Assembly: GCA_028283855.1 (NCBI GenBank)
Contig: JAPWJX010000003.1
Location: 372,001-436,000 of the forward strand
Direction of reading: 5' to 3'
Length of the DNA: 64,000 bases
DNA from: Verrucomicrobium sp.
GTDB lineage: Bacteria; Verrucomicrobiota; Verrucomicrobiia; Methylacidiphilales; GAS474
The position numbers were made by a program, and so were the translations under genes. The notes below the pieces were generated by a model. The model searched no databases. It was not told where the DNA came from and saw nothing but the letters and a program-made list of their open reading frames with translations. Shown here one piece after another: positions 25,153 to 27,584 of this stretch (its first letter is position 1; every line of letters starts with the position of its first letter).

Positions 25153-27005
25153 TTATTCGACGGTGACGCTCTTGGCCAGGTTGCGGGGCTTGTCGATGTC
25201 CCGGCCCAGCGCGGCGGCGGTGTGGTAGGCCAACAGCTGAAGAAGAACGGATGCCAGGATCGGCTGGAGGAAGGCCGGAGCCTTCGGGATATAGAGCACC
25301 TCGTCGGCCATGGAGGCGATGCCCTCGTCCCCTTCGCTGGCCACGGCGATGACGGAGCCGTTGCGGGCCTTGATTTCCTGGAGGCTGGAGACGTTCTTGT
25401 CGTAGACGTCGTCCTGAGTGCAGATGAGGACGGCGGGCGTCGCCTCGTCGATGAGGGCGATGATGCCGTGCTTCAGTTCCGCCGAGGGGTGGCCCTCCGC
25501 CTTGATGTAAGTGATTTCCTTCATCTTCAGCGCCCCTTCCAGGGCGACGGGATATTGCTGCAGGCGGCCCAGGAAGATCATGCTCTGGACGCTCTGGTAG
25601 CGCTCGGCGATGTCACGCACGGCGTCGCTCTGCTCCAGGACGCGGGAAACCAGGCCGGGGAGATGCTCGATGGCCTCGATCATCTCCTTCCCCTGCACCT
25701 CGGAGAGGCGGCGGCGGCGGCCCAGGAAAAGCGCCAGGAGGGTGAAGATCATCACCTGGCTGGTGAAGGACTTCGTGGCGGCCACGCCGATCTCCGGCCC
25801 GGCGTGCATGTAGACGCCGCCGTTGGTCTCGCGGGCGATGGAGCTGCCCACGCGGTTGCAGATGCCGAAGACGCGGAAGCCCTTGTTCTTGGCCTCGCGC
25901 AGGGCGGCCAGGGTGTCGGCCGTCTCGCCGGACTGGCTGACGGCGAAGAAGAGGGTCTTGCGGTCCATCGGCGGGTTCCGGTAGCGGAACTCGCTGGCGA
26001 AATCGACCTCCACCGGGAGGTCCCGGCGAGGGATTCGATCAGGTATTCGCCGACCAGGGCCGCGTGGCGGGCGGTGCCGCAGCCGACGATGACGATGCGC
26101 TCCACGTCCCGCAGCTCCGCCTCCGAAAGGACGGAGAGGCCGCCGAGCTTGGCCGTCGACCCGGCCACGTCGAGGCGGCCGCGGAAGGCCTCCCGCAGGG
26201 CCTGGGGCTGCTCGAAGATCTCCTTGAGCATGTAGTGGGAGTAGGCGCCCAGCTCGGACTGGGCCTCGATCGGGTCCACCTCGCTGATCTCGTACTGCGG
26301 GGCGGTGCCGGAAAGGGAGGTGATGGCGAAGGAGCCCGGGGTCAGGCAGGCGATGTCGCCGTCGTTGAGGTAGACGACCTGGTTGACGTGCCCGGCGATG
26401 GCCGTCACGTCGCTGGAGAAGAAGTTCCCCTCCTTGCCGATGCCCAGAATAAGCGGGCTGCCGCGCCGCGCGCCGACGAGCTCTTCCGGGGAGTCCTGGT
26501 GGATGACGGCCAAGCCGAAGGTGCCCTGCACTTCCTGGAGCGCCTGCTGGACGGCGCTCAGGAGGCGGGAAGGGGTGCCGGCGGGAATCGCGTCGTAATA
26601 GTGGCCGACCAAGTGGGCCAGGATCTCCGTGTCCGTCTCCGACTTGAAGGCGTGGTCGAGGGCCAGGAGCTTCTGCCGCAGGGTGCGGTAATTTTCGATG
26701 ACGCCGTTATGGACCAGGGCCAGGCGGCCGGAGCGGTCGGTGTGGGGGTGGGCGTTCGTGTCGCTGGGGACGCCGTGGGTGGCCCAGCGGGTGTGGCTGA
26801 TGCCGATGTGGCCGGGCAGGGGCTCTTCCCGGACGAAGTGTTCCAGGACCTGGAGGCGGCCCTCTTTCTTGGCCAGGTGAAGGCGGCCCCCCTTCAGCGT
26901 GGCGATGCCGCTGGAGTCATAGCCGCGGTATTCCAGACGGCGCAAGCCGTCCAGGAGAAGGGGTTGCGCCTCTTTTTCGCCGAGATAAGCCACAATGCCG
27001 CACAT
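25153..27005 (-). pseudogene. glmS: Glucosamine-6-phosphate synthase with apparent frameshift
   Basis: Makes glucosamine-6-phosphate from fructose-6-phosphate and glutamine for cell-wall precursors. The N-terminal glutaminase domain begins MCGIVAYLG (Cys2 nucleophile) and the first SIS domain follows. The frame breaks after YLIESLAG; the second frame resumes as PVEVDFASEFRYRNP and continues intact to KSVTVE. The shift lies at about 26018-26030 (CGCCGGGACCTCC on the coding strand). Adding one base gives LARDLPVEV; removing two gives LAGLPVEV, which matches the usual length. Both halves are otherwise well preserved and the enzyme is normally essential, so a sequencing or assembly error is more likely than a dead gene. 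Confidence 0.9.
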
Positions 27006-27062
27006 GGGAAGGCCAGCTTAGCCCGTCCCCGGAAGCCGCCGCAATGGGTTTCTGGCCTTCCC
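27006..27062 (-). promoter_or_regulatory. Hairpin abutting the glmS start codon
   Basis: GGGAAGGCCAG (27006-27016) and CTGGCCTTCCC (27052-27062) form a perfect 11-bp inverted repeat with a 35-nt loop. In the mRNA the last base of the stem touches the A of the glmS ATG, so the structure could restrict ribosome access. The sequence does not resemble the glmS ribozyme. No Shine-Dalgarno site is visible. Confidence 0.5.
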
Positions 27063-27064
27063 TC

Positions 27065-27178
27065 GGGGATCCAAGGGGGGCTGAGCCCCCCTTGCGTCTG
27101 TAAAAGCCCGGGCCGGTGGGCGCCGCGCGGGCTGCCGGCGCACGCAAAGTTGGGCCCTGGGGGTGCTTCCTGCCCTGG
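27065..27178 (+). repeat. Intergenic repeat element, copy A (114 bp)
   Basis: Begins GGGGATCC, then a hairpin CAAGGGGGGC-TGA-GCCCCCCTTG, then GCGTCTGTAA, a variable G/C-rich middle, AAAGTTGGGCCCT (27146-27158), and ends TTCCTGCCCTGG. A matching copy lies in inverted orientation at 27371-27485. The arms of the hairpin differ between copies in a compensated way. No coding potential seen. Confidence 0.6.
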
Positions 27179-27370
27179 GACATGAGAGCGGCGCCCCATT
27201 CCGTCTCCGGTCTATGGGTCGGGGCCCGCCGGTCCGGCAGGGGGGTGGGTCCGCCCGGGCAGCGGCCCGCCGGGCGAAGAGAAAGCGGGTAAGTCCAATC
27301 CCCATCCCAGAGTAAGCCCACGACGCACTCAACTGAGCCGGAACGGAACCGGGCGGCCCTAAGTACCGCG
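27179..27370. other. Core between the inverted repeats; no gene seen
   Basis: This 192-bp stretch separates the two repeat copies. It is very G/C-rich with several short self-complementary pieces (for example GGGCCCGCC and GGCGGGC-like blocks). Open frames here are short and match nothing I recognise. Confidence 0.4.
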
Positions 27371-27485
27371 CCAGCGCAGGAAACGAAGCAAGGGCCCAAC
27401 TTTAACGCGCCAGCGCCAGCGCGCCGTCTTCCGAACAAAACGCTTACAGACGCAAGGGGGGACGGATGTCCCCCCTTGGATCCCC
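27371..27485 (-). repeat. Intergenic repeat element, copy B (115 bp)
   Basis: Inverted relative to copy A. Read on the minus strand: GGGGATCC, hairpin CAAGGGGGGAC-ATCC-GTCCCCCCTTG, GCGTCTGTAA, variable middle, AAAGTTGGGCCCT (27403-27391), TTCCTGCGCTGG. The internal box is 82 nt from the start here and 81 nt in copy A, so length and layout are conserved while the middle has diverged. The ~100 bp from here to glgC hold no other clear feature. Confidence 0.6.
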
Positions 27486-27584
27486 CTCCCGGTCGGCCCG
27501 GCCCTGGCGCGATGGCCAGTCCGTCCGGCCCTTTCCTGAATGTACCCCCTTGCCAACCGGCCACGGCCTCCTAATGGTACCACC

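Follow-up and report, generated by a model that had tools for sequence, protein, structure and literature searches.

The divergent glmS and glgC genes of Verrucomicrobium sp. are separated by an intergenic gap within the 64,000-nucleotide stretch of DNA analysed here (the window). The original prediction placed in this gap an inverted pair of ~114-bp repeats, A and B, and both copies lie where it put them and carry the blocks it listed, including a G6/C6 hairpin and AAAGTTGGGCCCT, which is common to the two at offsets of 81 and about 82. A BLASTN comparison of copy A with the whole genome, which had been proposed as a check, returned B at 73% identity over 114 bp (E = 1e-8) together with further copies. 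As the unit of repetition, however, the ~114-bp pair is too small. Because a 421-bp query matched four other places end to end, at 72-77% identity, A and B form the arms of a single foldback element between glmS and glgC, the whole of it being a ~480-bp foldback with a core between the arms. In an alignment of the five copies the conserved part measures ~421 bp, or ~480-530 bp with the ends included. The features of the window copy are collected in Table 1.

Table 1. Parts of the foldback element between glmS and glgC, in window coordinates
Feature	Position	Strand	Evidence or remark
Whole foldback element	about 27050..27530	+	Five-copy alignment; comparison of glmS-glgC gaps; between divergent glmS and glgC
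Left arm (copy A)	27065..27178	+	Inverted match to right arm, 73%; left arms 74-87% alike over five copies
GGGGATCC block	starts 27065		Adjoins left hairpin
Left G6/C6 hairpin, AAGGGGGG-CTGAG-CCCCCCTT	27073..27093	+	Compensatory changes, 13 distinct hairpins
Near-invariant block GCGTCTGTAA	27094..27103	+	Adjoins left hairpin
Conserved ~150-nt core between arms	27203..27360	+	80% mean pairwise identity, five copies; also in dnaA-dnaN half copy
Most conserved core string CGACGCACTCAACTGAGCCGGAACGGAA	27321..27348	+	Alignment
Right arm (copy B)	27371..27485	-	Inverted match to left arm; 84-85% to other copies' left arms; mosaic
TTACAGACGC, inverted partner of GCGTCTGTAA block	27444..27453	-	
Right G6/C6 hairpin, AAGGGGGG-ACGGATGT-CCCCCCTT	27454..27477	+	ACGGATGT tip
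Right terminus GATGGCCAGTCCGTCCGG	27511..27528	-	Inverted partner of sister copies' GGACCGATTGGCCATC left ends; terminal pattern search

From the outside inwards, the element consists of the GGACCGATTGGCCATC terminus, the GGGGATCC-G6/C6 hairpin-GCGTCTGTAA block, the inner arm and the core. The GGACCGATTGGCCATC form of the terminus is seen clearly on the left in the copies at 503 and 696 kb of contig C3 and on the right in almost every copy, and the GATGGCCAGTCCGTCCGG type of right terminus also ends the copies at 502.7, 634.3, 695.5 and 465.0 kb of this contig. The left edge of the window copy is degenerate, so its left boundary is uncertain by about 10 nt. Three copies carry an additional left hairpin, CCTTCCGGG..CCCGGAAGG or similar, between the terminus and the GGGGATCC block. 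Over the five copies the left hairpin has a mean pairwise identity of 95% and the right hairpin one of 84%, with 80% for the core (columns 211-362 of the alignment) and 72-73% for the inner arms; the middle, which had been described as diverged, is therefore better conserved than the inner arms that flank it, and the alignment with flanks contains near-invariant core strings such as CGACGCACTCAACTGAGCCGGAACGG. All 10 occurrences of TTACAGACGC on the 1.42-Mb contig C3 fall within elements or a remnant at 828 kb. No plausible protein was found in the element, across which the ORFs overlap on both strands and none is gene-like.

Besides the five full copies, the source genome holds one half copy and two hairpin remnants, the latter at 550.9 and 828.3 kb of C3, with whole-unit matches reaching BLAST E values of 5e-79. 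The search with the five-copy profile took in C3 and, of C1, C2 and C6-C9, either the first 20 kb or the entire contig; for C4, C5 and the remaining contigs a BLAST search returned chance-level matches. The half copy (C3:464798-465041) directly follows dnaA and precedes dnaN. It consists of the core and the right arm and in this form resembles the single units of Verrucomicrobium sp. GAS474 described below, although deletion is an equally possible origin of the half copy. In the same dnaA-dnaN gap (C3:464799-465290), the half copy adjoins a TTTTTCACA-like stretch that is perhaps the replication origin. The window copy and the copy at 612 kb sit between divergent genes, and the orientation of the source-genome copies to their neighbouring genes is inconsistent. 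Left arms are mostly closer to the left arms of other copies, and right arms to right arms, than are the two arms of one element, the exceptions being two right arms, a left-type one in the window copy and an intermediate one in the 634-kb copy. Left and right arms are thus largely separate lineages, which indicates that the foldback predates the spread and that whole units were copied; the exceptions suggest some later exchange between the arms of copies.

Comparison with two congeners, GAS474 (G002) and a second genome (G001), bears on how the window copy arose. Both keep glmS and glgC divergent but lack the element between them: the glmS start and the conserved glgC start lie about 120 bp apart in G001 and 150 bp apart in G002, as against 580 bp in the source genome, and the glmS-side flank can be traced to about window position 27045. 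The shorter congener gaps identify the element as an insertion at glmS-glgC, the one site at which this comparison was made. On the minus strand, glmS itself occupies two reading frames (window 25752-27005 and 25153-26013). Its amidotransferase and SIS parts lie in different frames, with the change near 26013-26025, which reflects an assembly error or else a genuine frameshift.

The G6/C6 hairpin is kept through compensatory changes. In a set of 13 distinct hairpins, pairing is seen in 95.7% of cells, and sliding the partners makes the score collapse; changes on both sides of the stem account for 9 cells as compared with 3.5 in shuffled sets, and none of 500 shuffles scored as high. The base-pair-preserving difference at the hairpin tip, to which the original prediction had drawn attention, is among these changes (C-G against A-T). 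Shuffled windows contain no match to the 39-nt hairpin block at <=3 mismatches, and the 481-nt strand folds better than all of 100 dinucleotide shuffles, with z scores of -5.6 as RNA and -5.9 as DNA; pair counts over the whole unit exceed those of shuffles only modestly. The hairpin evidence is compatible with DNA and RNA alike. An absence of further copies and a loss of pairing had been named as the outcomes that would speak against the prediction. Neither occurred, and its proposal of a REP- or MITE-like family with covarying hairpins is borne out by the further copies in the genome and the pairing kept by compensatory change.

Related repeats are present in both congeners. Downstream of dnaA, G002 carries an inverted repeat with TTTAAGACGCAAGAGGGG..CCCCTCCTGGACCTCCCC, similar in sequence to the right arms of the source genome, and as a query this element gave 109 matches in GAS474 and 48 in G001. 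The motif CGCCTCCAGCTGTACAGGG (<=2 mismatches) occurs at least 126 times in GAS474, 44 times in G001 and not at all in the source genome, and its reversed pattern, used as a control, gives 1 match (in GAS474) or 0. The GAS474 units are ~230 nt long and occur singly or, often, as inverted pairs. By rough ORF calls they lie mostly near gene 3' ends; of 34 places, 15 are between convergent genes and 3 between divergent genes. A hairpin module common to the window family and the GAS474 repeats was detected by nhmmer (E 7.8e-7) and by BLAST (E 3.3e-6 over 57 bp). The two also resemble one another in the form of this module (GGAGGTCCAGGAGGGG..CCCCTC), in a TTTAAGACGC-like block in left-type units, in inverted-pair architecture and in origin bias. 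They differ in that the GAS474 hairpin has the opposite polarity relative to the core, which lies on its other side, that the GAS474 core is unrelated or too diverged to align, and that motif copies number >100 rather than 8. The homology between the two families is seen in the hairpin module only. Families with the same hairpin module have expanded strongly in GAS474, and for its very large family of ~230-nt structured repeats we found no description in the literature searched. Many G001 contigs (for example C530, C326 and C393) start or end within element-related repeats, which therefore probably break short-read assemblies.

Outside the genus the searches gave no matches. The window element had none beyond the genus among 384 genomes of the class (382 besides the source genome and GAS474), nor had a GAS474 unit among 62 genomes of the order. 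Nothing similar was found in plasmids, phages or viral contigs, and spread on phages or plasmids was rejected on this ground. A core pattern was not matched in 84,980 genomes, a collection from which the source genome was possibly left out, and a 20-21 nt part of CGACGCACTCAACTGAGCCGGAACGGAA had no exact match in genome or viral contig collections. Our literature search likewise found nothing on repeats in the genus Verrucomicrobium.

In its overall form the element is close to MITEs of the ERIC, Correia/NEMIS and Nezha types, which are likewise short, non-coding, multi-copy intergenic foldbacks with inverted ends that lie beside genes. It is a non-coding unit of ~480-530 bp with inverted arms and termini, dispersed over 8 places, and short gaps in G001 and G002 provide the corresponding empty site. 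In contrast to MITEs, however, no target-site duplication or partner transposase was found, the arms, at ~115 bp plus termini, are unusually long, conservation in the core exceeds that in the inner arms, and the element is confined to one genus. As to the target-site duplication, in 34 GAS474 units no direct repeat recurs in the flanks at a consistent offset, and none was evident by eye in the source copies; because the ends are poorly defined, a small or decayed duplication may still be present. For this reason we call the element MITE-like rather than a MITE.

The G+C-rich hairpins, inverted pairs and intergenic positions of the element are also features of REP, BIME and REPIN sequences, as are the high copy number and mostly gene-downstream position of the GAS474 units, which further match the published preference of REPs for convergent over divergent gaps. 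The comparison covers the GTAG and CGTC super-families (PMC3733652) and REPINs (PMC3116915). The units described here are nevertheless ~230-500 bp in length, compared with 20-40 bp for a REP, they have no 5' GTAG or CGTC tag in the REP position, and no RAYT gene was found in either the source genome or GAS474. Membership in the GTAG REPs or REPINs was rejected, as there is no GTAG at the stem and no match to PF01797, the Y1/RAYT family, in the source genome or GAS474. G001 has two Y1/RAYT-type transposase genes between inverted CCGGTGGTTGAGG..CACCACCGG repeats, which are REP-like and unrelated to the element. With no Y1 transposase in the source genome or GAS474, and the two in G001 flanked by a repeat other than the element, CCGGTGGT..ACCACCGG, a RAYT-driven REPIN was discarded as well. 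In a CGTC REP, a short stem of 8-9 bp is flanked by an unpaired CGTC tag on one side and a CCA-like tail on the other. The element has a stem of ~8-9 bp, but CGTC lies 3' of it and CCA 5', the reverse of the order in CGTC REPs, and the unit is far longer, so this class was rejected too.

The dispersed copies with shared termini, the insertion at glmS-glgC, the separate arm lineages, the hairpin covariation, the high-copy GAS474 units with a homologous hairpin module and the restriction to the genus make it probable that the element is a non-coding, non-autonomous foldback mobile element of MITE/REP-like character. A unit of ~500 bp with long imperfect inverted arms, subterminal G+C-rich hairpins and terminal sequences of type GGACCGATTGGCC...GGCCAATCGGTCC would have been copied, as an intact whole, into several gaps between genes. 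An enzyme acting in trans would have recognised the ends, the hairpins or both and moved the element, and this enzyme would by now have been lost or have escaped identification. No autonomous partner was seen, and neither the arms nor the terminal pattern lies beside a transposase on C3; the other contigs were covered by BLAST. The copies are 23-28% diverged, which suggests that the family is old and probably inactive in the source genome. Several observations count against a mobile element: neither a target-site duplication nor an autonomous partner was found, and no RAYT gene in the source genome or GAS474; conservation is higher in the core than in the inner arms, a pattern atypical of MITEs; and free transposition would not be expected to cluster the copies around the origin.

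An alternative is a structured non-coding RNA, or an mRNA leader or trailer element, that had spread by duplication and would act through the long arm helix and the conserved core. The higher conservation of the core relative to the inner arms, the RNA fold (z -5.6) and the position of the GAS474 units near gene 3' ends, with their excess of convergent over divergent gaps, are in keeping with this. The DNA fold is equally exceptional, however, and the source copies have no consistent orientation to neighbouring genes. Rfam covariance models gave no match in the element at gathering score and chance-level matches alone at E<=10, and a known RNA family was accordingly rejected. The RNAalifold covariation term for the whole unit is unfavourable (positive, +10.9). 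Arm mismatches of the G-U and A-C types stand at 39:24 (p 0.08, from copies that are not independent), so that one RNA strand is not significantly favoured and selection on an RNA strand through G-U pairs in the arms was set aside. The RNA element that the original prediction had listed among its options gains no positive support from these results; an RNA function is possible but unsupported, and we consider this reading unlikely.

The clustering is pronounced. In the source genome (2.56 Mb), all eight places fall on one contig in an arc of 429 kb with dnaA inside it (p about 3.5e-5 under random placement), and the six strong copies alone are clustered with p about 1e-4. The GC skew over C3 has a broad sign change near dnaA, consistent with an origin there. 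GAS474 has 60 exact motif matches, or 55 places after merging neighbours, which are skewed towards dnaA (KS p 2e-5) and leave empty the eighth of the genome farthest from it. It is thus conceivable, if doubtful, that the elements are REP/BIME-like DNA sites useful to the host near the origin, where a nucleoid or topology protein would bind the hairpin and TTACAGACGC, and that recombination or selection would have dispersed these sites. The copy between dnaA and dnaN and the restriction of TTACAGACGC to the elements on C3 also agree with such a role. An ordinary cause may nonetheless produce the same skew without function: old insertions would persist longer in a stable origin-half backbone than in a variable terminus region. 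Of twenty GAS474 samples, the one at 2.90 Mb is lowest in G+C (0.575), which fits a variable terminus but is no proof of it. In addition, no binding protein is known for such sites, and copy number differs greatly between species (8 as against >100). We regard as improbable the more specific proposal that these are lineage-specific foldback sites kept by the host, with the hairpins and TTACAGACGC serving chromosome organisation or replication and the dnaA-dnaN copy acting as an anchor. A single perfect palindromic parS-like site, TGTTCCACGTGGAACA, is present at C3:548451 within an mnmG-like ORF. It is the sole canonical parS on the contig and falls outside the elements, and a parS-like function of the elements was rejected. 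That two unrelated inverted stretches are alike by chance or G+C bias is scarcely credible, even in a G+C-rich genome with many G/C runs, as five copies align end to end with whole-unit E values down to 5e-79 and the further copies refute it.

The probable mobile element between glmS and glgC looks less like a new kind of system than like an old, probably immobile element that is unusual in its position bias. It belongs to a set of long foldback repeats without description in the literature searched, in a poorly studied genus of Verrucomicrobiota, for which no transposase has been found so far and which show a clear origin bias in two species. If this bias is functional, the repeats would be a chromosome-organisation element; if it is not, they would offer a usable case of the spread and decay of non-autonomous repeats in bacteria.
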